A stretch of DNA of 64,000 nucleotides from Rhizobium sp. WSM4643 (lineage in GTDB: Bacteria > Pseudomonadota > Alphaproteobacteria > Rhizobiales > Rhizobiaceae), in assembly GCF_025152745.1 (NCBI RefSeq), contig NZ_CP104040.1, forward strand, positions 2,418,001 to 2,482,000. The letters are read 5' to 3'. Below, piece after piece: positions 15,541 through 33,506 of this stretch (within the stretch, counting starts at the first letter, position 1; every line of letters begins with the position of its first letter). Under the pieces are notes generated by a model. It saw only the letters and a program-made list of their open reading frames with translations, was not told the origin of the DNA and did not search any database. Both the position numbers and the translations under genes were made by a program.

Positions 15541-17361
15541 ATGCAGACGTCGATACCAGCAGAGGGGTCTGCGGCACCCATTTCTTCAAGGCCGGCGCCT
15601 CACGCCGACGACATCCGGGAACAACTGGAACGTGTCGTCTCCAGCCCTGAATTTCCCGGCGTCGGTCGCGCCGCCACGTTTCTCCGCTATGTCGTCTCGG
15701 AAACCCTCGAGGGCCGGGGCAACCGGATCAAAGCCTATTCGATCGCGATCGAGGTGTTCGGCCGGGATCCCGGCTTCACCCAGGACGATCCTGTGGTCAG
15801 GATCGAGGCCGGACGGCTCCGGCGGTCGCTTGAGCGCTATTATCTCGTCGCCGGGCAGCATGACCCCGTCAGGATCGACATTCCCAAAGGCGGATATGTT
15901 CCAACCTTCGCCTGGTCCTGTCCGGCATCAGTCGACACTGGAGACGAGGACGCTGGCGAAACATCGCCCTCTGAGGTCCGCCGCGGAGGCTGGTGGCGCG
16001 CAAGGCGGGTCTTGTTGCCGGGTGCTGCTGCGCTCGCTGCAGTGGCTATTTCGCTATTTTGGATCGCGGAGCGGTCTCCCGCTCCGTCGCTGGCACGCGT
16101 TGCAAGCCTGTCGCCCGATCGCCCGGCCCTCGTGGTGGCTCCGTTTGCCAATCTCGGCGAAGGGCCGGAGGCGCAGCTCTACACAGCCGGCCTGACCGAG
16201 GAACTGATGACTATCCTGCCACGGTTCAAGGAGATCAAGGTTTTCGGCCGCGAAACGTCCAAGTCCCTCCCAGCGGATGTGGGCGCATCGGAGATCCGGG
16301 CGGAATTCGGCGCACGCTATCTCCTTGCCGGCGGGGTACGCACGTCCGGCAAGCGCCTTCGTGTGACGGCGAGGCTGCTCGATACGTCGGACGGCGAAAT
16401 CCTCTGGTCGGAGAACTATGACAATGATCTCGCATCGGGAGACCTGTTTGCGATCCAGACGGATGTTGCCAGAAAGGTCGCGACCGCCATCGCCCAGCCC
16501 TACGGGGTGATGGCACAGGTCGACGCCGCCAGTCCGCCGCCGGATAACCTCGGTGCGTATGAGTGCACTTTGCGCTTCTATGCCTATCGTTCGGAACTGA
16601 GCGCCGAGGCGCATGCGCGCGTCCGGGATTGCCTCGAGGCCGCGCTCGCGCGGTTTCCGAACTACGCGACCGCCTGGGCAATGCTTTCGATCGTCTATCT
16701 CGATGAGGACCGGTACAAGTTCAATCCAACATCAGGGCAGGATACAGCCATACAGCGTGCACTCGATGCCGCCAGGCGCGCAACGCAGATCGATCCGAAC
16801 AATACGCGCGGACTTCAAGCCCTGATGACGGCGCTGTTCTTCGACAGGCAGCTTGCTGAATCACTTCGTGTGGGTGAGCTGGCGCTCGCCACCAACCCCA
16901 ACGACACCGAACTGATGGGCGAATTCGGAACCCGGCTTGCGATAGCTGGCCAGTGGCAGCGCGGAGCAGACCTTCTGGACCAGGCCATTGCTCTGAACCC
17001 AGGAAGTGGCGGCTTTTACCGTGGAACGCGAGCCTTGGCCGCCTACATGCTCCGCGACAACCACACCGCCGTGCTCGAAATCAAACAGGCGAACACGCAG
17101 AAGTTCCCTCTCTTCCATGTTGTCGCCGCCATCATCTACGCGGAGGCTGGCATGATGGACGACGCCCGCCGGGAAGGACAGGTGTTCGTCAGCATGCGAC
17201 CTGACTTCCTGCCGAACGTTGTAACGGAACTCGCAATGCGCAACATGCAGCCTGAAGATCGCGATCGTCTGATCGAAGGACTTCGCAAGGCGGGAATGAC
17301 CGTGCCCGATCCGAATGCAATGGCGTGGACCGCCGACACCTCGGATCTGCAACCCCGCTGA
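15541..17361 (+). CDS. Membrane-anchored CadC-like protein: winged-helix-type N-terminus, TolB/FlgO-like domain, TPRs
   Basis: The 606-residue protein has four parts. Residues about 28-120 form the N-terminal module seen in many CadC-like proteins (FLRYVVSETLEGRGNRIKAYSIA, DPVVRIEAGRLRRSLERYY, IPKGGYVP). One membrane helix lies near 155-175. A TolB/FlgO-like domain follows (ALVVAPFANLGEGPEAQLYTAGLTEELMTIL, then RYLLAGGVR). A TPR region runs from about 330 to the end. The layout is that of one-component membrane signal transducers. I chose the ATG at 15541; a TTG at 15529 would add four residues. It may read the local palindromes, but that is untested. Confidence 0.8.
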   Translation: MQTSIPAEGSAAPISSRPAPHADDIREQLERVVSSPEFPGVGRAATFLRYVVSETLEGRGNRIKAYSIAIEVFGRDPGFTQDDPVVRIEAGRLRRSLERYYLVAGQHDPVRIDIPKGGYVPTFAWSCPASVDTGDEDAGETSPSEVRRGGWWRARRVLLPGAAALAAVAISLFWIAERSPAPSLARVASLSPDRPALVVAPFANLGEGPEAQLYTAGLTEELMTILPRFKEIKVFGRETSKSLPADVGASEIRAEFGARYLLAGGVRTSGKRLRVTARLLDTSDGEILWSENYDNDLASGDLFAIQTDVARKVATAIAQPYGVMAQVDAASPPPDNLGAYECTLRFYAYRSELSAEAHARVRDCLEAALARFPNYATAWAMLSIVYLDEDRYKFNPTSGQDTAIQRALDAARRATQIDPNNTRGLQALMTALFFDRQLAESLRVGELALATNPNDTELMGEFGTRLAIAGQWQRGADLLDQAIALNPGSGGFYRGTRALAAYMLRDNHTAVLEIKQANTQKFPLFHVVAAIIYAEAGMMDDARREGQVFVSMRPDFLPNVVTELAMRNMQPEDRDRLIEGLRKAGMTVPDPNAMAWTADTSDLQPR

Positions 17362-17377
17362 TGCTGCCTCCCCGACC

Positions 17378-17398
17378 GTAACATACCCGATCATACGG
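17378..17398. promoter_or_regulatory. Operator-like half sites, site 5
   Basis: GTAACATAC (17378-17386) equals the right arm of the perfect palindrome, and CATACGG (17392-17398) repeats the motif found just after sites 2 and 4. No left arm is present. It lies 107 bases upstream of the hydrolase start at 17505 and could be a weak or single-dimer site. Confidence 0.35.
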
Positions 17399-17504
17399 GT
17401 AAGGCATCTCATCTTCGCATAGTCTCGCCTTAGTGCCGACTTCGACAGCCACAGCGCGCGGCGGCGAGGCCGGCTCAAACTTGATGTGGCTACGAGGAAC
17501 AGCA

Positions 17505-18815
17505 GTGAGCACAAGATGTCGCGATGGCCGAATTCAACCGGGCACTTCCCCAGGTCTGAAATGGATCTCGGCTCTCCTGCTGCTCTGCGCATTATCCGGA
17601 TGTGGAGGCCACGCGAAGAACGTGCTCATCCCCGTTGCCGACAGCGCGCCGAACGCCGCCAAAGTCGACATGCTCGTGGCCACGACGCGCAGCCGCTCCA
17701 CGATAAAAGGCGAGATGTTCACGGGCGAGCGCGCGCTCGCCCCGGCCTTTGCCGACATCACCGTATCCATTCCCCCTGCAAACGTCCGCAAGGTCGGCGA
17801 AGTCGCCTGGCCGATGAGGCTTCCTTCCAACCCGGCAACAGACTTCGCAACCTTGAAAGCCGATGAGATCACGCGCGACGACGCCAAGAAATGGCTAAGC
17901 GCCTCAGTCAGGAAGAGCCGCGATCGCAGCGTGCTCGTGTTCATCCACGGCTTCAACAACCGTTTCGAAGACTCCGTCTATCGCTTCGCCCAGATCGTCA
18001 AGGATTCCGGCGTCCATAGTGCGCCGGTGCTGGTGACATGGCCGTCGCGCGGCAGTCTGCTTGCATATGGCTATGACAGGGAGAGCACGAACTACACGCG
18101 TAACGCATTGGAGACCCTCTTCCAGTATCTCGCGAGGGATCCAGAGGTGAAAGAAGTCTCGATCCTGGCGCATTCCATGGGCAACTGGCTGGCGCTGGAA
18201 GCACTTCGCCAAATGGCGATCCGCAACGGCCGCCTTCCCGCCAAGTTCGAGAATGTCATGCTGGCCTCGCCCGACGTGGATGTCGATGTCTTCCGCCAGC
18301 AGATCGTCGACATGGGCAAGCAGCATCCGAAGTTCACCTTGTTCGTTTCGCGAGACGACCGCGCGCTCGCGGTATCCCGCAGGGTATGGGGCGACGTCGC
18401 CAGACTGGGCGCCATCGATCCCGAGCAGGCTCCCTTCAAGAAGGAACTAGCCGACAGCCAGATCACAGTGATTGATCTCACCAAGGTGAAGGCGGGCGAC
18501 AGGTTGAACCACGGAAAATTCGCAGAATCGCCCGAGGTCGTACAGCTCATCGGCGCGCGGATTTCCGACGGACAGACGCTGACCGACAGCAAGGTCGGGC
18601 TAGGGGACAAGATCGTTGCCGCGACGACGAGCACGGCGGCGGCGGCAGGCAGCGCAGCCGGCCTGATCCTTGCCGCCCCGGTCGCCGTCGTCGACGCCGA
18701 CACCAGAGATAATTATGCCGGCCAGGTCAGCGGCCTCGCGGGTCCTGTGGGTACACCGCCGAAGGCCTCCGAGTGCACCGCCGCGGGCCGATCGAAGGAG
18801 TCGTGCAGGCAATAA
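17505..18815 (+). CDS. DUF900 alpha/beta-hydrolase lipoprotein
   Basis: About 436 residues. A signal segment ends in the lipobox LSGC, so the protein is probably an envelope lipoprotein. The DUF900 hydrolase fold follows: VFIHGFNNRFEDSVYRFAQI (oxyanion region), AHSMGN (nucleophile Ser) and SPDVDVDVF (acid region). A hydrophobic Ala/Gly stretch occurs near the C-terminus. The GTG at 17505 has GAGGAAC upstream and gives a normal signal length; ATG codons at 17433 or 17484 would lengthen it. Likely an esterase or lipase; substrate unknown. Confidence 0.83.
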   Translation: MSTRCRDGRIQPGTSPGLKWISALLLLCALSGCGGHAKNVLIPVADSAPNAAKVDMLVATTRSRSTIKGEMFTGERALAPAFADITVSIPPANVRKVGEVAWPMRLPSNPATDFATLKADEITRDDAKKWLSASVRKSRDRSVLVFIHGFNNRFEDSVYRFAQIVKDSGVHSAPVLVTWPSRGSLLAYGYDRESTNYTRNALETLFQYLARDPEVKEVSILAHSMGNWLALEALRQMAIRNGRLPAKFENVMLASPDVDVDVFRQQIVDMGKQHPKFTLFVSRDDRALAVSRRVWGDVARLGAIDPEQAPFKKELADSQITVIDLTKVKAGDRLNHGKFAESPEVVQLIGARISDGQTLTDSKVGLGDKIVAATTSTAAAAGSAAGLILAAPVAVVDADTRDNYAGQVSGLAGPVGTPPKASECTAAGRSKESCRQ

Positions 18816-18862
18816 CGGTTCAGGAACCGGCAAACTGAGGTTCATAGAGATCAGGATAAACA

Positions 18863-21019
18863 ATGCCATTACTTTCCAAGATCCGCATGTTTAAACCACT
18901 TCTCACGGCGCTTGCCCTGGCTTCCGTTCTCCTTTGTGCCTCGATTGCTGTGGCGCAGAGCGTGACGCCTGCGAGCCCACAGCCAGAAAGTGTTCAGCGC
19001 TTTATCGGCATGTTCTCGGATCCGGATGTCCAGCGCTTCCTGCAGCAGCAATCGGCAGCAGCCAAGACCGCGGCGGAACCGCCCTTGGAAACCCGGAACG
19101 CAGACCCTTCATTCTCGGAATTCACGATGCGATTCCGTGCCCATGCCTCTAGTCTTCTCGACGCCATCCAGTCCTTTCCCCTGGAGACGATGCGAGGCGG
19201 GGCCGTGCTCGAACGGGACATCCAGGCGAATGGCGGGACGCGGCCGATCTTCCTGGTCGCTGCCTTCGTCGCCGTCGGGCTGGCCGCGCAATGGCTGTTC
19301 TGGTGGATCAGCGCCGGCTGGCGCTCATGGATGGCGCGCGCCCCCTTTGCCACGGTTCGCGAGCGGATGATCGCACTGGCCGCGAGGCTTCTGTGGGCGG
19401 CATGTTACGTCCTTTCCTTCGGCCTCGGCAGCATCGGCTTCTTCCTGATGTTCCAATGGCCACCTGTTATCAGGGAAGTGGTCGTGGGATACCTCTTCGC
19501 GATCGTGATCTTCCGTCTGGCGAGCGCTCTTTTCGAGGTGTTTTTGGCGCCAAACGCCGAGGAAGAAGGTCGGTTTCGTGTCGTGCCGATCACTGCGGAT
19601 GTCGCCGGCCATTGGACAAAACGCCTCGGTTACCTCATCGGCTGGTATGCCTTTGGCTGGGTGACGATCCGACTGCTCGGTACGCTCGGTTTTTCCGACC
19701 CGACCCGGCAACTCGTCGCCTATGCCCTCGGCCTCGTGCTCCTCGTCATCGGTATCGAAGCCGTCTGGAGACGTCCGGTTCAATTGGCTGCCGGTCAAGC
19801 CGGCCGGATCGGCCTGCAGGCGCGGAACTGGCTCTGGACAGTCTATTTCGTTGCCGTCTGGTTGCTGTGGGTGGTCGGCGCCATGAGGTTGTTCTGGATC
19901 GCGGTCGTTTGCGCCGCGCTGCCCGGTGCCATCGCCCTCACCAAGGCGTCGGTTAACAATATTCTGCGCTCTTCCACGGACGAAGTGGACGGCCACAAGA
20001 AAGGCAATGTGGTCTCGGTGATCGTCGAGCGCGGCATCAGGGCAGCGCTGATCGTCGGCGCCATCATCCTTCTTGCCGATGCGCTCGATATCAGGCTGAC
20101 GCAAATGACGATGCAGGATTCGCCGCTTCTACGCCTCGTGCGTGGCCTCCTCAGCGCCGGGATCATTCTTCTGGTCGTCGATCTTGCCTGGAATGTCGTG
20201 AAAGTGCTGATCGATCGCAAGCTCGGCGACACCGAGGCCGTCCTCGAAATCGGCAGCGAGCGGGAGCGGCGGCGCACACGTCTCAGAACCCTGCTGCCGA
20301 TCCTTCGCAATTTCCTCATGATCCTCTTCAGTGCCATCGCGATCATGATGGCGCTGTCATCGCTGGGGGTCGAAATCGGTCCGCTGATCGCAGGCGCCGG
20401 CGTGGTTGGCGTTGCGATCGGCTTCGGGGCGCAGACTGTCGTCAAGGACGTGATCAGCGGGATGTTCTACCTGCTCGACGACGCCTTCAGAGTGGGAGAG
20501 TATATCCAGAGCGGCAGCTACAAGGGCACCGTCGAGTCGTTCAGCCTAAGATCCATCAAACTCCGGCACCAGCGCGGCGCGGTCTACATCGTGCCCTTCA
20601 GCGAGCTTGGAGCAGTCCAGAACATGAGCCGCGACTGGGCGATCGAGAAGATGACGATCACCATCACCTACGATTCCGACATCGAGAAGGCCCGCAAGAT
20701 CATCAAGAAGATCGGCCTGGAGCTGTTCGAGGATCCGGAGTTCAAACCGACGACGCTCGAGCCGCTGAAGATGCAGGGGATCGATAGCCTGGGGGACTCC
20801 GGCCTGCTCCTGCGCATGAAGGTCATGACCCTTCCCGGCCAACAGTTCACGCTGAAGCGTCGAGCTCTGCGGATGATCCATGAGGCGTTCAACGAAAACG
20901 GCATCAAGCTCGCCGTGCCCACAGTTCAGGTCTCGGGCGGCAAGGACGACGCTGTCGCAGCCGCTGCCCAGCAGACGCTGGCAGCACACAACGCAGCCGC
21001 GGCCGCAAACTCGGCCTGA
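18863..21019 (+). CDS. Large MscS-family mechanosensitive channel
   Basis: The 718-residue protein has a signal peptide (about 1-32), an extracytoplasmic helical region, many membrane segments and the MscS core: GAGVVGVAIGFGAQTVVKDVISGMFYLLDDAFRVGEYIQ (pore helix TM3 and start of the beta domain). The alpha/beta cytoplasmic domain follows. The size and N-terminal extension resemble YbiO/YnaI-type channels. Such channels release solutes on hypo-osmotic shock. It follows the hydrolase gene by 47 bases, with a GGTTC-AG-GAACC dyad (18820-18831) between. Confidence 0.9.
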   Translation: MPLLSKIRMFKPLLTALALASVLLCASIAVAQSVTPASPQPESVQRFIGMFSDPDVQRFLQQQSAAAKTAAEPPLETRNADPSFSEFTMRFRAHASSLLDAIQSFPLETMRGGAVLERDIQANGGTRPIFLVAAFVAVGLAAQWLFWWISAGWRSWMARAPFATVRERMIALAARLLWAACYVLSFGLGSIGFFLMFQWPPVIREVVVGYLFAIVIFRLASALFEVFLAPNAEEEGRFRVVPITADVAGHWTKRLGYLIGWYAFGWVTIRLLGTLGFSDPTRQLVAYALGLVLLVIGIEAVWRRPVQLAAGQAGRIGLQARNWLWTVYFVAVWLLWVVGAMRLFWIAVVCAALPGAIALTKASVNNILRSSTDEVDGHKKGNVVSVIVERGIRAALIVGAIILLADALDIRLTQMTMQDSPLLRLVRGLLSAGIILLVVDLAWNVVKVLIDRKLGDTEAVLEIGSERERRRTRLRTLLPILRNFLMILFSAIAIMMALSSLGVEIGPLIAGAGVVGVAIGFGAQTVVKDVISGMFYLLDDAFRVGEYIQSGSYKGTVESFSLRSIKLRHQRGAVYIVPFSELGAVQNMSRDWAIEKMTITITYDSDIEKARKIIKKIGLELFEDPEFKPTTLEPLKMQGIDSLGDSGLLLRMKVMTLPGQQFTLKRRALRMIHEAFNENGIKLAVPTVQVSGGKDDAVAAAAQQTLAAHNAAAAANSA

Positions 21020-21072
21020 GGGCGGAATCTTCGAGGAAAAGAACACACACGAGAGCAATGGGAGGAAATGAA

Positions 21073-21471
21073 ATGAAGATCCTGGTTATCCCTACGCACA
21101 TGCTTGCGACACTTGCCGTCATCATGACGGTCTGCGCACCCGTCCTCGTTCCCACGACGGCCGAAGCCCGTCGCGGCGTAGCGGCATGCGGTCCGAGAGG
21201 CTGCGGTGCTGCGGCCTGCGGACCGCGCGGATGCGCTGCAGTCGGAAGCACCCGTCCTGCCGTTCGGCCGCCCGTCCGGCGCGGCGTCGTGGTCGTCGCC
21301 CCTCGCCGTTACTGGCGCCCGGGTACGGCAATCGCCGCAGGTGCTGCCATCGGCTTCGTCGCCGGAGCTGCCGCCGTCTCACTGGCAGGCACGCCGCCGC
21401 AGTCCGGTCAATGCTGGTACTACACCTCGCCCGCCAAGACGACGGGCTTCTGGGACGTGTGCCCGCGCTGA
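21073..21471 (+). CDS. Exported hypothetical protein with ACGPRGC repeats
   Basis: The 132-residue protein has a signal peptide ending near TAEARR and two tandem copies of ACGPRGC just after it. A basic Pro/Val-rich stretch, a hydrophobic Gly/Ala helix (AIAAGAAIGFVAGAAAVSLAG) and a Cys-containing C-terminus (GQCWYYTSP..., DVCPR) follow. GGGAGGAA precedes the ATG. The Cys-rich repeats could be disulfide-bonded or metal-binding in the periplasm. I do not recognise a defined family, but similar small exported proteins are common in Rhizobiales. Confidence 0.75.
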   Translation: MKILVIPTHMLATLAVIMTVCAPVLVPTTAEARRGVAACGPRGCGAAACGPRGCAAVGSTRPAVRPPVRRGVVVVAPRRYWRPGTAIAAGAAIGFVAGAAAVSLAGTPPQSGQCWYYTSPAKTTGFWDVCPR

Positions 21472-21520
21472 GCGATCCGTCAGAAAAGCTGACAGCTCGT
21501 TTGTTCTCTTCGTCGCCCGC

Positions 21521-21539
21521 CCTCCCCTGAGTTGGGAGG
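21521..21539. promoter_or_regulatory. Inverted repeat before marC
   Basis: CCTCCC and GGGAGG flank CTGAGTT. The core resembles the inverted repeat at 8066-8089 (CTCC, AGT, GGAGGA). It lies 41 bases upstream of the marC start and could be an operator. Confidence 0.3.
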
Positions 21540-21579
21540 ATCTCGATTTCCAGGTCACAAATCTCAGAGGGTACGTTCC

Positions 21580-22227
21580 ATGGATTTCACAGTCATCGAT
21601 GCCGCACTCGTCGGAAAACTTCTCCTGCTCCTTCTGATCGGCCTGGGGCCGAAGATCGCCTTGGTGCCGTTTCTGGAGAAGACCCATGCCTTCGATACCG
21701 AAACCAAGGCGCGTATCGGCCGCCAGATGGTTTTGGTCGCAGTGGTCACAGCCTTGATCCTTTTTGCCACCGGTGCTCTGCTGATGCGGCTTCTCCATAT
21801 CACGGGCGGCGCCGTCGCCGTCGCCGGCGGCATCATCCTGGCGCTGATCGCGATCAAGATGGCATCAGGACCAACAGAGAAGCCGCATGACGACATTGCG
21901 GCGCCCGTCGATCCCGAAAAGATCGCCGTCTTTCCGCTTGCGGTCCCTTACCTGCTCAATCCTGTCGGCATCACCGTCGTCATCATCGCCTCCGGCGAAG
22001 TCGTCTCGATCGCCAGCGCGATACTCGTCATTGCCCTTATCCTGATCGTCGGCGCGTTGGACTATCTGGTGTTCACCAACATCGACAAGCTCGCCAAACG
22101 CATGAAGCCTGCCAGTCTGATCGTCTCGGAGGTCGTCTTCGGCATTCTGCTGACCGCAGTGGCAGTCCAGCTGATCGTCGTCGGGCTTGGCAATCTCGGG
22201 ATCATTACCCCGACCGCTGCACACTAG
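21580..22227 (+). CDS. MarC-family integral membrane protein
   Basis: The 215-residue protein has six hydrophobic segments and MarC-family features: a GLGPKIALVPFLE start, GGIILALIAIKM in the middle and FPLAVPYLLNPVGIT in the second half. MarC (UPF0056) proteins are inner-membrane proteins of unclear function, once linked wrongly to antibiotic resistance. I used the ATG at 21580 since upstream codons are not conserved in style. It closes the 5-22 kb envelope/stress cluster. Confidence 0.85.
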   Translation: MDFTVIDAALVGKLLLLLLIGLGPKIALVPFLEKTHAFDTETKARIGRQMVLVAVVTALILFATGALLMRLLHITGGAVAVAGGIILALIAIKMASGPTEKPHDDIAAPVDPEKIAVFPLAVPYLLNPVGITVVIIASGEVVSIASAILVIALILIVGALDYLVFTNIDKLAKRMKPASLIVSEVVFGILLTAVAVQLIVVGLGNLGIITPTAAH

Positions 22228-22567
22228 GTGCGGACGATTTTAGTGCCCGGTCGGCATGAAATCGGATCTGATCTAAATCAAAGAAATAGATCGTGATGTC
22301 GTCCGGAACCGTTCATACTGCTCGGGATCATTTTCGCCTGCAGATCTGCGATTCCTTGCGCGGGAAAGCCAGGGATTAAGGTCCGCGACAGACTGTAAAG
22401 GTGTCGCCGATGGCTGGCCGCCGCGCGACGATCATTCAATATCTCTGATGTTATCCATAAGTTCTATTCGTTTGAATGATGAGTTTCCAAGGCCCATATT
22501 AGGATCATGGACATGGACGAACCTCCCAATGACGACCATGCCCCTGACCCAAGAAAGGAACCGGAAA
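22228..22567. other. Non-coding stretch upstream of the DUF1127-like gene
   Basis: No gene is seen in these 340 bases. The only structure I find is a perfect nine-base inverted repeat, ATCATTCAA at 22431-22439 and TTGAATGAT at 22472-22480, separated by 32 AT-rich bases. It is probably the promoter and operator region of the small gene at 22568, or holds a small RNA I cannot recognise. Confidence 0.5.
22431..22480. promoter_or_regulatory. Spaced inverted repeat in the DUF1127-like promoter
   Basis: ATCATTCAA / TTGAATGAT arms are perfect and 32 bases apart, about three helical turns. Such spacing fits a dimer or tetramer binding two half sites, as LysR tetramers do. It is 88 bases upstream of the start at 22568. 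Confidence 0.4.
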
Positions 22568-22768
22568 ATGACCACGCTCACCTATCGCGGTGGTGGTAAG
22601 TCCCTCACCTCCAGTGAAAGCCGCTTCGATCTGGCACATTATGCCCGTAAGCTCGTGCTCGCCTGGACGCGCTGGCAGACGGCCCGCGAAATCGAAGCCA
22701 TGCCCTTCGACATTCGCAAGGACATCGGCTGGCCGAGCACGGATGACAGCAAACACCGGACCATGTAA
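22568..22768 (+). CDS. DUF1127-like small protein
   Basis: This 66-residue protein starts at the ATG at 22568 after AAAGGAACC. The C-terminal half (LVLAWTRWQTAREIEAMPFDIRKDIGWPSTD) has the DUF1127 pattern of a tryptophan-containing helix, a Met/Leu-Pro-D/F-I-R-K-D-I-G-W core and a short tail. An earlier ATG at 22448 would add 40 residues not typical of the family. Its stop codon is the first base of a 64-bp repeat that includes a strong terminator and recurs at 25911. Confidence 0.75.
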   Translation: MTTLTYRGGGKSLTSSESRFDLAHYARKLVLAWTRWQTAREIEAMPFDIRKDIGWPSTDDSKHRTM

Positions 22769-22829
22769 TGAATGCGACATTCCTCCCAAAATAAGGGCGG
22801 CGTCTGCATTGTGCAACGCCGCCTTTTTC
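22766..22829. repeat. Direct repeat, left copy (stop codon plus terminator)
   Basis: The 64 bases from TAATGAATGCGACATTCC to the T-run match 25911-25974 with four mismatches, three of them in the hairpin loop. The copy begins at the stop codon of the DUF1127-like gene. The two copies enclose a 3.1-kb segment holding only the helicase gene, the geometry expected of an insertion that regenerates the 3' end of its target. Confidence 0.85.
22796..22828 (+). terminator. Rho-independent terminator of the DUF1127-like gene
   Basis: GGCGGCG (22796-22802) pairs with CGCCGCC (22817-22823), and an inner TGCA can pair in the loop. A run of five T follows. It also faces the 3' end of the convergent helicase gene. 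Confidence 0.85.
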
Positions 22830-22952
22830 ATCTTCTGAATGCCCGAATCTGCTTGTCGAATGTCGCTCGCCTTTCCGGCACTGGACGGCGCCGCAACTGC
22901 ATGCCAGGTGCAAACGCGCTGCGGCAGGCGGGAGCCCCATCAGGCTTTCCAA

Positions 22953-25742
22953 TTACTCCCACCGGCTAATTCTATCGGTTTTCTTTGTAAACGCGGAAGC
23001 GAATGATTTCGCGCGGAATTGGAGCAGTTTCAGGCGACCCTGGGCACTGCGCGTGTAGACAAGTTCCGAATCACCGACGTAACGATTCCAAAGTTCAGCG
23101 AAATAGATGGCATCCTCTCTTTTTCGGCCGATGATCGAAGGGACTGCATGATAATCCACCCGATTCATCCGCCAGAATGTTGACGACCTTACGAGAATGT
23201 AACGGGGATTCTGTGGGGGAACGAGGACTTCCCGTAGAGCGTCGAGAAAGCGGGACCGCTCAATTGTCGTGGCACCCTCAAGCCGGCAATAGATGATGCC
23301 GTTTTGGTCGAGCGTCGCCTCGACACTCACTTTTCCCAACTCGGTCCTTATCACGCCCATATGATGCAGCGTCTCCAGAACGGTTATTCCCACCTGCTTC
23401 ATGCTCCCCTCCAGCGAGCCGTTCCGCAGCAGCAACAGGCTAGCTTTCAGTGCGCCCGGCAAGCAGAAGATGGCCAGTAATGCGAACATAACGAACAGGA
23501 CCAACTCCAGTTGTTGGAGCGATCGGATGTGTGTAGCGCGAAAGCTGTGCAAGAATCCGTTCAAGATCATACCGGCGAGCGCGGCGCTGTGCGCAAACAG
23601 AAACTTTGTCGTATTCCAGTTAACCAGCCCCTTAGGGGCATAGTTGCTCTCCAATGTTTCTTGCATCCTGGCAACGGCGCGTTTGCTGTGCAGCGCGCTA
23701 TGCCAGCGGGATTTCAGTGATTTGCGGTCTGCAGCCCTCCGTTCCATCATTTTGTTGATCTCATCAACACCGCGCGCATTCCATTTGGCGGTACCCAGCA
23801 TCAATCGTTGAAAACCGCTTTCGATCAGCGGAGGCTCGCCGAAGGACAAACCCTCAAACGCGTAAAATCGGCGCTTCAGCGCATCGACGTCGCTGCCCAG
23901 GTCTATTGTCATAGTGTCAAAGGGATCGGGCGCTTTTCTAGCGGTCGATTTCCTCCCGAAGCGCAGCAATATTCTCTGCTCGAGCTTTTCAGGGTCGATG
24001 ACCGCCAGATGCCAGACGTTCGCTGCCTTCTGAGGGTTTCGAGGATCGATGCGAATGGCACGACCGCGCATCTGATTGGAGAGTACGTATGATCCCACCG
24101 TACTTGCCAGGGTCAAAGTGTTTACGGACGGCGCGTCCCATCCTTCACCCAGCAAAGCCTGTGTGCCGACCAGGGCTGTGATCCCGCCGCGACTGAACAA
24201 CTCGGTGATTATATGCACGATATTGCGGCTCCGCTCGCCGCAGAGTTCCACGCTCAGAAAGCCTGCATCGAATGCCGCCTGTTGATAACGGATGTGTTCG
24301 GCACCGATGCCAAGACGGTCTGCGATCTCGTCAAGAATTCCTTTTGACTCCGCAGGAATGAGAATCAGACTCCCGGTCAGAATTCCAAGCTTGAGATCAA
24401 GTTCGGACCGCCGCAGCGTCTCGAAGATTGGCACAACGCCCATTCTCTCGATGGGCTGAAGGTCCGTGGGGGCAGTGGGCAGCGCATCCTTCCTTATATA
24501 GTCGGAAAGGATAACCATACGGAGTTCGTCACCCATCGACGCGCTTTCGAGCCGGGTAATATCGACGATCGCGTTGAGCTTGCTCACACTTGATACCAGC
24601 AGCTTCTGAACCGATCGTGGATCAGTCAGTCGCACTCTGCTGTGCTCCAGTGCCCTAATTTCCCTCAACCTGTCTTGCTGGCAGCGGATTGCCTCTTCAG
24701 CTTCTTCGAAATCATTGCGATAGGTGTAGATAACGCCGTTCAACATTACCTCTATCCATTCAAGCGTCAGATCCGGTATTTCACGCGCCTTGACGCCGAG
24801 AATGTCGAGAATCGACTGCGGCAAGTCGACATATTGTGAATTTAGGAAGATCAGCATGCTGGAGAAAAAGCGTGCGTCGTCCAGTATATGCTCCACATTC
24901 TCGATCGGCTGCGCAATCCATGGATGACGTAGAATTGCCTCCTTGAATTCTGCACTCTGCAGCGTTTCGATGAAGTCTCCGATCTGCGCGCGAAACTCGG
25001 TCAGCTTCTGTGCTTCCAATGCACTCGGCAGACTGAAGTGGACATAATCCTGGTGTGGGCAAAGATCGCCTTGCAACACAAGTTCCGGCACGGAAATTTC
25101 GCCGTCGATCGGCCCGCAAAGCGCCTGATAGCGGTCCCATTCCTGAGGATCTACATCATAAGGAGGCGTAGCTGTCAGCGCGACGACAGTGGGCTGGCCT
25201 AGTGCTTCCTTGAGCATCGTCAGCGCCTTCCACCACTCGTTTCTAAGATGGTGCGCTTCATCGAGCACAAGGGTGCGAACCTTCTCCTCGCGCAGCTTCG
25301 CGATGATTTTCTTTCTCGCCTTCTCCGTTTCCTGCTTGCCTAGTTCGCCGGATTGCGCCCCGTCGCTGCCCTCCTCTTCACCGTCGAGGATTTCTTCTTC
25401 GGACGGATGGCCCGAGAGCGCCGCATGCAGAGCTTGATAGGTGATGATCGTGACGGTTCCGGGCGCTTTCACATCGTGGGAAATCCACTCCGGTTCGGCA
25501 AGGTCGGCGGGCAAGAACATCGTGCGCAGCCGATGCGCCCATTGGTCCCGAATGGTCTTGCTCGGAGCCAGAATCAAAGTCGCCTCACCGAGCCTGCACA
25601 TCACTTCAAGACCTAAAACCGTTTTACCGGAGCCGGGTGCCGCCACAATATGCAACCCGTCATCGCCAATGAGATTTGTCAGATCATCAAGTATCTTCTG
25701 CTGATATTTTCGCCACTTTCCCTGAAAAGCGAGGTCCTTCAT
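22953..25742 (-). CDS. SF2 DEAH-type helicase with two C-terminal membrane segments
   Basis: The 929-residue protein has an SF2 helicase core: Walker A AAPGSGKT at 34-41, motif II DEAH at 161-164, motif III TATPP near 190-194, motif V GTQALLGEGWDAP and motif VI QMRGRAIR. An acidic insert (EEEILDGEEEGSDG, about 115-128) lies between Ia/Ib and II. The C-terminal part has two hydrophobic helices (about 712-730 and 746-771) and a further domain of about 150 residues. I know of no named family with this order. It is alone between direct repeats and its AT content looks higher than its neighbours, so it is probably acquired; a phage-defence role is plausible but unproven. Confidence 0.85.
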   Translation of the reverse strand: MKDLAFQGKWRKYQQKILDDLTNLIGDDGLHIVAAPGSGKTVLGLEVMCRLGEATLILAPSKTIRDQWAHRLRTMFLPADLAEPEWISHDVKAPGTVTIITYQALHAALSGHPSEEEILDGEEEGSDGAQSGELGKQETEKARKKIIAKLREEKVRTLVLDEAHHLRNEWWKALTMLKEALGQPTVVALTATPPYDVDPQEWDRYQALCGPIDGEISVPELVLQGDLCPHQDYVHFSLPSALEAQKLTEFRAQIGDFIETLQSAEFKEAILRHPWIAQPIENVEHILDDARFFSSMLIFLNSQYVDLPQSILDILGVKAREIPDLTLEWIEVMLNGVIYTYRNDFEEAEEAIRCQQDRLREIRALEHSRVRLTDPRSVQKLLVSSVSKLNAIVDITRLESASMGDELRMVILSDYIRKDALPTAPTDLQPIERMGVVPIFETLRRSELDLKLGILTGSLILIPAESKGILDEIADRLGIGAEHIRYQQAAFDAGFLSVELCGERSRNIVHIITELFSRGGITALVGTQALLGEGWDAPSVNTLTLASTVGSYVLSNQMRGRAIRIDPRNPQKAANVWHLAVIDPEKLEQRILLRFGRKSTARKAPDPFDTMTIDLGSDVDALKRRFYAFEGLSFGEPPLIESGFQRLMLGTAKWNARGVDEINKMMERRAADRKSLKSRWHSALHSKRAVARMQETLESNYAPKGLVNWNTTKFLFAHSAALAGMILNGFLHSFRATHIRSLQQLELVLFVMFALLAIFCLPGALKASLLLLRNGSLEGSMKQVGITVLETLHHMGVIRTELGKVSVEATLDQNGIIYCRLEGATTIERSRFLDALREVLVPPQNPRYILVRSSTFWRMNRVDYHAVPSIIGRKREDAIYFAELWNRYVGDSELVYTRSAQGRLKLLQFRAKSFASAFTKKTDRISRWE

Positions 25743-25910
25743 TCACTGCTGCCTCTTGGATCAAATGTGACGAGTCGTCGCGGAAGCTGCGACTAAAATG
25801 CTCTTCAGGAGACACTGCACCATCTTGGCGCGCGTCATGCAGCGCCAGTTATGCTCCCCGCAGTCCTTTTGACGAAATTTCAACGTCAGCGCAACGACAT
25901 CAGCTCGCTA

Positions 25911-25974
25911 TAATGAATGCGACATTCCTTCCAAAATAAGGGCGGCGTCTGCACCATGCAACGCCGCCTTTTTC
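25911..25974. repeat. Direct repeat, right copy with terminator
   Basis: This repeats 22766-22829 (60 of 64 bases), including TAATGAATGCGACATTCC. Here it does not end a visible gene: upstream is helicase promoter DNA. That asymmetry suggests the right copy marks the distal junction of an insertion. Confidence 0.85.
25941..25973 (+). terminator. Duplicate rho-independent terminator
   Basis: GGCGGCG (25941-25947) pairs with CGCCGCC (25962-25968), followed by five T. No plus-strand gene ends just upstream, so this terminator appears to be displaced from its original gene by the inserted segment. Confidence 0.8.
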
Positions 25975-26196
25975 GTGGCCTCACCATCCATTCCTAAGCC
26001 ATTTTCAACATTGAATTTCAGTCGCCTATGAGCCTGTCTTTTGCCCCGCCCGCAGCCATTCCGGCGGTTTCACCGGCCAAATCGCGGGCGATGTCGCATA
26101 TTTGCTCTTCCCGGCCGCATTTTTCCATGCCAGTGTCGCTTTCAGGACATCGGCGCGACGCATTCCGCGCAACGAATGTGTCATCGCCCCTCGAGC

Positions 26197-27228
26197 ATGG
26201 ATTTCGCTATGAACAGGATGCAGATCAAGAAGCGTTCGGTAGTCTTCTTTATGGTACCGCAATTCACCATGCTGCCCTTTTCGGCGGCCGTGGATACCTT
26301 GCGCATCGCCAATCGCATGCTCGGCTACCAGGCCTATACCTGGCGGCTGACCTCCGTCGATGGAGAAAAGGTCTATTCTTCCTGCGGCATCGGCGTCGAG
26401 GCAAATTCCTCGCTTGCCGAGGAGCGCCGTCATCTCGGCGGCGAAAACCGGCCAGGCATGGTGCTCGTCTGTTCCGGCATCGATGTCGAGCAGTTCAACA
26501 ACAAGTCGGTCAATGCCTGGCTGCGTGAATGCTACAATCGCGGCGTCGCCGTCGGCAGCCTCTGTACGGGCGCGCATGTGCTTGCCCAGGCCGGTCTCCT
26601 GAACGGCAAGCGCTGCGCCATCCACTGGGAAAACCTGCCGGGCTTTTCGGAAGCCTTCCCACAGGCGGAGGTCTATGCCGATCTCTACGAGATAGACGGC
26701 AATCTCTACACCTGCGCCGGCGGCACCGCCTCTCTGGACATGATGCTCAACCTCGTCGGCGAGGATTTCGGCGAAAGCCTCGTCAACCGCATCTGCGAGC
26801 AGCACCTGACCGACCGCGTGCGCAACCCGCACGACCGCCAGCGTCTACCGCTGCGCGCCCGCCTCGGCGTGCAGAACGCCAAGGTACTGTCGATCATCGA
26901 ACTGATGGAAGGCAATCTCGCCGAGCCGCTGTCGCTGATCGAGATCGCCGACGGCGCCGGCCTCTCGCGCCGCCAGATCGAGCGGCTGTTCCGTCAGGAG
27001 ATGGGCCGCTCGCCGGCCCGCTACTATCTGGAAATCCGCCTCGACCGTGCGCGCCACCTCCTGGTGCAGTCCTCGATGCCCGTCGTCGAGGTTGCCGTCG
27101 CCTGCGGCTTCGTCTCGGCCTCGCATTTCTCCAAGTGTTATCGCGAACTCTACCACCGCTCGCCGCAGCAGGAGCGCGCCGAGCGCAAGATGACCATGGC
27201 GACGGCAAGACAGGCGGTCGCCGCGTGA
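26197..27228 (+). CDS. GlxA-type AraC-family regulator (DJ-1/PfpI plus HTH)
   Basis: About 343 residues. The N-terminal half is a DJ-1/PfpI-like domain (SVVFFMVPQFTMLPFSAAVDTLRIAN, then GSLCTGAHVLAQAGLLNGK), which in this group senses small amines such as carnitine, betaine or arginine. The C-terminal AraC domain has two helix-turn-helix motifs (IEIADGAGLSRRQIERLFRQEMG and VVEVAVACGFVSASHFSKCYRELY). ATGs at 26197 and 26209 are both possible starts; the conserved part begins at QIKKRSVVFF. The regulated genes are not obvious from the neighbourhood. Confidence 0.88.
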   Translation: MDFAMNRMQIKKRSVVFFMVPQFTMLPFSAAVDTLRIANRMLGYQAYTWRLTSVDGEKVYSSCGIGVEANSSLAEERRHLGGENRPGMVLVCSGIDVEQFNNKSVNAWLRECYNRGVAVGSLCTGAHVLAQAGLLNGKRCAIHWENLPGFSEAFPQAEVYADLYEIDGNLYTCAGGTASLDMMLNLVGEDFGESLVNRICEQHLTDRVRNPHDRQRLPLRARLGVQNAKVLSIIELMEGNLAEPLSLIEIADGAGLSRRQIERLFRQEMGRSPARYYLEIRLDRARHLLVQSSMPVVEVAVACGFVSASHFSKCYRELYHRSPQQERAERKMTMATARQAVAA

Positions 27229-32979: not shown

Positions 32980-33506
32980 CCACTGACCGTGCTTATAATG
33001 TGCTGTTTCTCTGCACGGGCAATTCTGCCCGCTCGATCCTGGCGGAATCCATTCTGGAGACCGAAGCCAGGGGTCGATTCAAGGCTTATTCGGCCGGTAG
33101 CCAGCCGAAGGGTGAGGTCAATCCCTATGCGCTGAAGGAGCTTGCGGCGCAGGGCTATCCAACAACCGGCTTCCGCTCGAAGAGTTGGAACGAGTTCGCC
33201 GAGCCGGGCGCTCCAGAGATGGATTTCATCTTTACTGTCTGCGACAGCGCCGCCGGCGAGGCCTGCCCGGTCTGGATCGGTCACCCGATGACCGCTCATT
33301 GGGGCGTCGAGGATCCCGCTGCCGTCGACGGCAGCGAAGTCGACAAGGGCCGCGCTTTCGCACAGGCCGCCCGATTCCTCAAGAGCCGGATCAGCGCCTT
33401 TTTGAGCCTGCCTCTTTCCTCGATCGACAAGCTCGCCCTGGAATCGCACCTGCACCAGATCGGCACGATGGAAGGCGCCAGCACTAAACAGCCCAAGGCG
33501 AGCTGA
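32976..33506 (+). CDS. arsC: Arsenate reductase, thioredoxin-linked (LMW-PTP fold)
   Basis: The 176-residue enzyme has the P-loop CTGNSARS at about residues 14-21 and further Cys in FTVCDSAAGEACPVW, the LMW phosphatase fold. These ArsC proteins reduce arsenate to arsenite with electrons from thioredoxin. A C-terminal extension of about 30 residues is present. It overlaps arsR (ATGA) and the next gene (TGATG). Confidence 0.93.
   Translation: MTTDRAYNVLFLCTGNSARSILAESILETEARGRFKAYSAGSQPKGEVNPYALKELAAQGYPTTGFRSKSWNEFAEPGAPEMDFIFTVCDSAAGEACPVWIGHPMTAHWGVEDPAAVDGSEVDKGRAFAQAARFLKSRISAFLSLPLSSIDKLALESHLHQIGTMEGASTKQPKAS

Follow-up and report, generated by a model that had tools for sequence, protein, structure and literature searches.

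A helicase gene between duplicated copies of a small gene's end: a single-gene insert at a site empty in most Rhizobium genomes

Introduction

Genomic islands of the integrase type usually occupy a fixed site, are bounded by long direct repeats, regenerate the 3' end of the gene into which they have inserted and show a low guanine-plus-cytosine (GC) content. Here, an insert is described that shares with such islands a fixed site, a regenerated gene end, direct repeats and the existence of empty sites, but differs from them in consisting of a single cargo gene, with neither an integrase nor any other cargo in 104 genomes. It lies in a stretch of 64,000 nucleotides (hereafter the window) from Rhizobium sp. 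WSM4643 (assembly GCF_025152745.1, contig NZ_CP104040.1, positions 2,418,001 to 2,482,000), and its gene encodes a helicase of superfamily 2 (SF2) with a predicted membrane segment.

The XPB-type SF2 helicases (archaeal XPBII/RAD25; NF045503) are the closest described relatives of this protein, sharing its core motifs and providing its best matches among solved chains. Its score against NF045503 is 39.6 bits, whereas 610 are required for assignment as an XPB equivalog, and unlike XPB it has its two motor lobes separated by a long insertion and carries a membrane segment and an extra C-terminal domain. PbeA (36.1 bits) and the Dnd-linked restriction helicase TIGR04095 (27.3 bits) match it weakly and over the generic motor core only; the latter score is far under the cut-off of 600, and no partner genes were seen in the 3.1-kb insert. 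Mokosh MkoA, a membrane-linked defence helicase of superfamily 1 type with a partner gene, is similar in joining a helicase to a membrane segment; it was not among the PADLOC matches of the window helicase up to an expect value (E) of 1. Narrow word searches of the literature returned nothing on this helicase or its site, although searches of this kind could easily miss an existing description.

Results

The inserted segment spans 3081 bp (22830–25910) and is absent from 95 of the 104 genomes in which the site was measured. The only long open reading frame (ORF) within it is the helicase gene (929 codons, 22953–25742, reverse strand). The segment is bracketed by two 64-nt direct repeats on the plus strand (22766–22829 and 25911–25974) that are identical at 60 of 64 positions, the left one beginning at the TAA stop codon (22766–22768) of a small gene of 66 codons (22568–22768, plus strand). 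Apart from the right copy, no ungapped 64-nt stretch of the window agrees with the left repeat at more than 33 of 64 positions, and a search of the whole 6.4-Mb genome gave full-length matches only at these two places, the 11 others being 14–31 nt long. The two copies are predicted to form the same GC-rich hairpin, with five U after it (−24.7 and −24.8 kcal/mol, with none of 200 shuffled sequences as stable): on the left it adjoins the small gene, on the right it stands without a gene and is joined to the ancestral right flank. A simple terminator scan of the plus strand listed neither copy, probably because of a bulge in the stem, and the term terminator used for the repeats refers to the predicted fold. 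A first-pass annotation, made from the letters of the window, had described repeats of this identity around one helicase gene, the left one starting at the stop codon of the small gene, and a common terminator-like hairpin; all of this was confirmed. It had also called the small gene DUF1127-like, a label of resemblance for which Pfam gave no support, as no family matched up to an E of 10.

The state of the site was assessed in 148 genomes of the genus, that of the window included, from the spacing between the small gene and the AraC-family regulator to its right (26197–27228, plus strand; DJ-1/PfpI plus HTH_18). The regulator is matched at the DNA level in all 148 genomes and the small gene in 106; start codons of both were picked by the analyst, within ORFs 26041–27228 and 22448–22768, respectively. 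The 42 genomes lacking a small-gene match were unmeasurable, and two others (G086 and G089), with a 30-nt match elsewhere, were set aside, leaving 104; where the query matched only in part, its unmatched bases were deducted from the distance. The spacing was 201–239 bp in 95 genomes (empty) and 3228–3377 bp in nine (occupied), with no values between, and no cargo other than the helicase was found at the site in any of the 104, which rules out a general cargo hotspot in these genomes. All 26 empty sites that were read, i.e. those whose loci were returned, carry a single repeat copy, next to which stands the flank that lies beyond the right copy in the window, as had been predicted for relatives without the helicase. 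In most relatives the small gene is followed by one copy of the repeat and then by the AraC regulator. The empty state is taken as ancestral, because it occurs in those members of the genus whose small gene and regulator have diverged furthest.

A search for the helicase across the genus gave some match in 12 of the 148 genomes, full-length in ten and weak and partial in two (G069 and G111). The tenth full-length copy (G042, 66% identity) lies elsewhere in its genome and without such repeats. The GC content of the insert is 54.8%, against 61.2% for the window; two of 122 equal-length tiles, which may include tiles overlapping the insert itself, were as low.

The extent of the duplication was determined by local alignment of the left and right copies within each genome, with positions given around the stop codon. 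The match covers 64 nt in the window, 46 nt in G017 and 112 nt (−39 to +72, 93%) in G083, where it takes in 39 nt of the coding end of the small gene; the matches of G084, G080 and G112 include 12 or 13 nt of this coding sequence. The duplicated block now measures 46–112 bp across occupied genomes, unlike the short target duplication of a DDE transposon, and terminal inverted repeats are lacking, as no pair among the 10 inverted repeats listed joins the two insert ends. As in integrase-type genomic islands and in integrative and mobilizable elements, the direct repeats stand at the junctions and restore the end of the target gene. In the founding event, the last codons of the small gene were apparently duplicated together with its stop codon and hairpin; the longer match of G083 may derive from conversion by its left copy. 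As both neighbours keep a hairpin at its usual place, the insertion may be silent for them. Combined, the 95 empty sites, the single repeat copy in the 26 that were read and a duplication reaching into coding sequence support the earlier proposal of an insertion that regenerated the 3' end of a gene.

The distribution and divergence of the insert were then compared with those of its surroundings. On a tree of the AraC gene from 35 genomes (the nine occupied and 26 of the 95 empty), which as a single-gene tree is a weak guide to species relationships, presence of the insert requires 8 changes, at least 4 of them forced by supported branches; shuffling presence and absence gave a mean of 8.2 changes and 280 of 500 shuffles as low, indicating no clustering. 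Within clades, the synonymous divergence (dS) of the helicase is mostly below that of neighbouring genes: 0.029 against 0.156–0.190 in three neighbours for the pair G033–G031, and 0.041 against 0.108 in the single gene compared for G084–G080. In G033–G031 the insert is 98.4% identical, whereas the repeats are 85.9 and 87.5% and the flanks 92.2 and 89.5% identical (Fisher p 3e-10 against the repeats and 2e-14 against the flanks); the regulator gene is 96.0% identical over about 1 kb. The non-coding edges of the insert show 92.0% (left) and 96.5% (right) identity in this pair (p 0.018 against repeats plus flanks). These values suggest that the helicase was recently exchanged between the two species. 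In G068–G112, the tract of high identity begins inside the helicase gene.

Paired repeats differ at a mean of 5.9 sites within a genome and of 8.8 between genomes (0 of 20,000 permutations as extreme), for which either gene conversion or entry into a resident site would account. At its right edge the insert is alignable in all nine copies, with a constant distance to the start of the gene. All ten full-length copies of the genus are open frames without stops, and the ratio of nonsynonymous to synonymous divergence (dN/dS) is 0.08–0.29 over their 45 pairs, pointing to purifying selection on the helicase. G058 was considered as a case of loss by recombination between left and right repeats, and was dropped as it offered one informative site.

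The helicase comprises an XPB/ResIII-type core (residues ~1–585), one or more membrane segments (~715–765) and a C-terminal domain (~776–929). Pfam gave ResIII (8.1e-20) over residues 9–194, Helicase_C over 494–565 (0.0013, below cut-off), weaker helicase and AAA matches, and no family over the C-terminal third. In ten aligned family sequences, 33–95% identical to that of the window, residues G37, G39, K40, T41, D161, E162, H164, Q557, R559, G560 and R561 are invariant; they include those of Walker A, the DEAH-type motif II and motif VI, which together with two RecA-like lobes place the protein in SF2. Sequence searches of solved structures gave archaeal XPB ATPases as best matches, with the single sequence over residues 154–224 or 11–74 and with the profile of the alignment over positions 13–112.

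The first-pass annotation had credited the protein with an acidic insert and two membrane helices. The acidic stretch is a region of variable length between helicase motifs, which one homologue lacks. As to the helices, one segment of the window protein (747–765) exceeds the hydropathy cut-off and a second, near 715–733, falls below it; among the ten aligned sequences two segments are predicted in six, one in three and none in one (Tritonibacter). The C-terminal domain carries the motifs NPRY and YTR...GR, and gave no Pfam match and no convincing structural relative, its model being of middling quality (predicted local distance difference test, pLDDT, 68.0). A full-length AlphaFold2 model (pLDDT 54.3) was left unused; the fold search with this poor model was topped by XPB. 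No named family in Pfam, NCBIfam or PADLOC spans the whole protein, in agreement with the earlier remark that its domain order has no named family. Rfam gave two matches, both far under gathering scores. Taken from sequence, these traits suggest an ATP-driven nucleic-acid translocase of the XPB/RadD/RIG-I branch, tethered to the inner membrane with motor and C-terminal domain in the cytoplasm.

Beyond the genus, in samples of the family (394 genomes), order (397) and phylum (299) with at most two candidates scored per genome, only G871 (50% identity) and G1164 (40%) gave matches. Counting these two genomes, which represent two other families, the helicase is present in 13 of 87 genomes around the first and in 2 of 146 around the second. 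A Paenibacillus plasmid (38%), Tritonibacter and Rhodovulum carry further relatives, so that at least two phyla are represented; matches on plasmids numbered four (29–38%), the one from Rhodovulum being annotated as separate pieces. Two matches labelled as phages (33 and 32%) come from short unannotated gut contigs, one of them beside ordinary bacterial genes, and two scans of viral contigs gave no relative; carriage of the helicase by phages or plasmids was set aside. In the gut contig MT836806.1 ('Bacteriophage sp.'; L061, 371–3771), an ORF read as a NUDIX hydrolase shares 4 nt with the beginning of the helicase homologue and is a candidate partner. Genes downstream resemble those of an amino-acid ATP-binding cassette transporter, so the contig looks chromosomal. 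The Tritonibacter homologue (L059, 7540–10310) keeps the C-terminal domain, has no membrane segment and is preceded by an overlapping ORF of 145 codons.

Homologues in 16 genomes had no direct repeat like that of the window within 1.5 kb, the strongest being a 31-nt pair (84%, E 1.5e-4) close to the gene in G1189, nor did three further loci scanned. In genus g215, of the family of G871, several copies of the helicase share flanking DNA without window-type repeats. A tRNA-Leu(GAG) gene is present in 8 of 9 stretches from this genus and the helicase lies 0.7–1.7 kb beyond it in several genomes; L100 (6182–9884) and related loci have the helicase in a variable segment past the tRNA. Thirty tRNA loci were read (of 45 genomes): six have the helicase within 1.5 kb, four an mgtE-like gene and 20 neither, three of the latter (G1224, G1195 and G1208) having the helicase farther off. 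Other cargo may lie at those 20 loci. The gene is accessory in g215 too, and no convincing duplicated tRNA end was found beside the tRNA-linked homologues (best E 0.018, in L101).

Two observations concern other parts of the window. MscS- and MarC-type genes to the left of the small gene (17000–22300) were not found beside it in G031, G084, G112, G068 and G065, indicating a second variable segment adjoining the site. At 33429–33504, ARAGORN called a tRNA whose 4-base anticodon (tcca) could not be assigned; this is probably a pseudo-tRNA or a false call.

Discussion

The history best supported by these results is a single ancestral insertion followed by exchange and loss through homologous recombination. 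The islet would have entered once, in the ancestor of this Rhizobium group, by Campbell-type integration of a circle carrying the gene end, with the help of a recombinase acting in trans or of RecA; the gene end would thereby have been duplicated, leaving a terminator to both neighbours. Homologous recombination would then have moved the insert between species and kept the paired repeats alike within each genome, and recombination between the repeats would have removed it. As a whole, this account of an accessory single-gene islet appears moderately probable to us.

Several observations weigh against it. Between clades, the dS of the helicase (0.37–0.59) roughly matches or exceeds that of its neighbours, which fits old residence and also separate entry of diverged alleles. 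In G033–G031 the insert is less conserved at its edges than in its core, and the points of exchange may therefore lie elsewhere than in the repeats. Between clades the left edge shows little conservation (44% identity across 70 aligned nt in G000–G083, against 72% at the right edge), which weakens the case for a single founding event. No donor form, circle or copy of an att-like site that would support the proposed route of entry was found among viral contigs, phages and plasmids.

Weak conservation of the left edge at the same time strengthens the alternative that the gene was inserted repeatedly and independently into the same site in several lineages. Its scattered presence on the AraC-gene tree and repeats that follow the host lineage more than the helicase also speak for this; yet the constant position of an alignable right edge in nine copies is what a single founding predicts, and recombination with gene conversion accounts for the repeats without a mobile enzyme, so that we consider repeated insertion improbable. 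The insert might instead be the remnant of an integrase-type island, the repeats being attL and attR and the helicase the cargo left behind, with an integrase lost or acting in trans. This would suit the regenerated gene end, the long repeats, the single fixed site and the low GC content, as well as the presence of the same gene near tRNA-Leu(GAG) in another family of the order. The helicase is, however, the only long ORF of the insert, whose length is similar in all nine copies and leaves no room for an integrase; no other cargo was found at the site in 104 genomes, nor a copy of the site in the phages, plasmids and viral contigs searched, and the tRNA-linked homologues lack a convincing duplicated tRNA end. 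We regard such an origin as rather unlikely, though less so than repeated insertion. That the repeats belong to a dispersed terminator family and flank the helicase by coincidence deserves almost no credence in spite of their hairpin, given only two full-length copies in the genome of the window, homology that includes 12–39 nt of coding sequence in four of the nine occupied genomes and a single copy in the 26 empty relatives read; this reading was rejected on genome copy number and on the single copy at empty sites. Neither of the two outcomes named beforehand as refuting an insertion, a helicase at the same place in all relatives or such a terminator family, occurred.

As to function, the least certain part of this account, the helicase may tentatively be assigned a defence-type role, in which it would bind foreign or abnormal DNA or RNA near the membrane and block or signal its entry. 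The first-pass annotation had proposed it as a candidate for phage defence, a plausible guess that the results have so far left unsupported. Searches of PADLOC 2.0.0 gave no strong full-length match for the window helicase (best, 36.1 bits over 67 residues, within the core) and similarly weak matches or none for four homologues. Neighbours of the homologues are mostly ordinary-looking and do not supply the evidence on which defence claims commonly rest: nine of the ten proteins beside five homologues had no PADLOC match, and the tenth, which matched DrmC profiles (8e-16) through a phospholipase D fold, is read as a cardiolipin-synthase type protein. These findings count against the defence part of the proposal, and the mobility, patchiness and selection of the gene fit defence and equally any conditionally useful gene.

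With a probability that we judge comparable, the helicase could be an accessory enzyme of repair or RNA metabolism, RadD- or XPB-like, rather than a defence factor. Archaeal XPB ATPases are its closest solved relatives by sequence, it appears to be under purifying selection and its homologues stand among ordinary-looking genes. On the other hand, its patchy occurrence (full-length in 10 of 148 genus genomes, with 13 of 87 and 2 of 146 for the two further families), its apparent exchange between species and its membrane segments, unusual for repair helicases, fit such a role less well. A more far-reaching version of the defence proposal would see in it an undescribed one-gene antiviral family of Pseudomonadota and Bacillota, a membrane-tethered XPB/RIG-I-like motor with an orphan C-terminal domain that in Rhizobium forms a cassette lacking a recombinase of its own and using the duplicated terminator to enter and leave one chromosomal site by homologous recombination; this is speculative, and we hold it to be unlikely.

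The locus provides a natural experiment in which species differ by one gene at one site and the empty site is preserved, for a helicase family that has no name in Pfam, NCBIfam or PADLOC despite relatives in at least two bacterial phyla. If the helicase protects against phages, it would represent a small, self-contained, membrane-linked helicase system. If it does not serve defence, the site would still suggest how duplication of a gene end can ease gain and loss of a single gene without a mobility gene.

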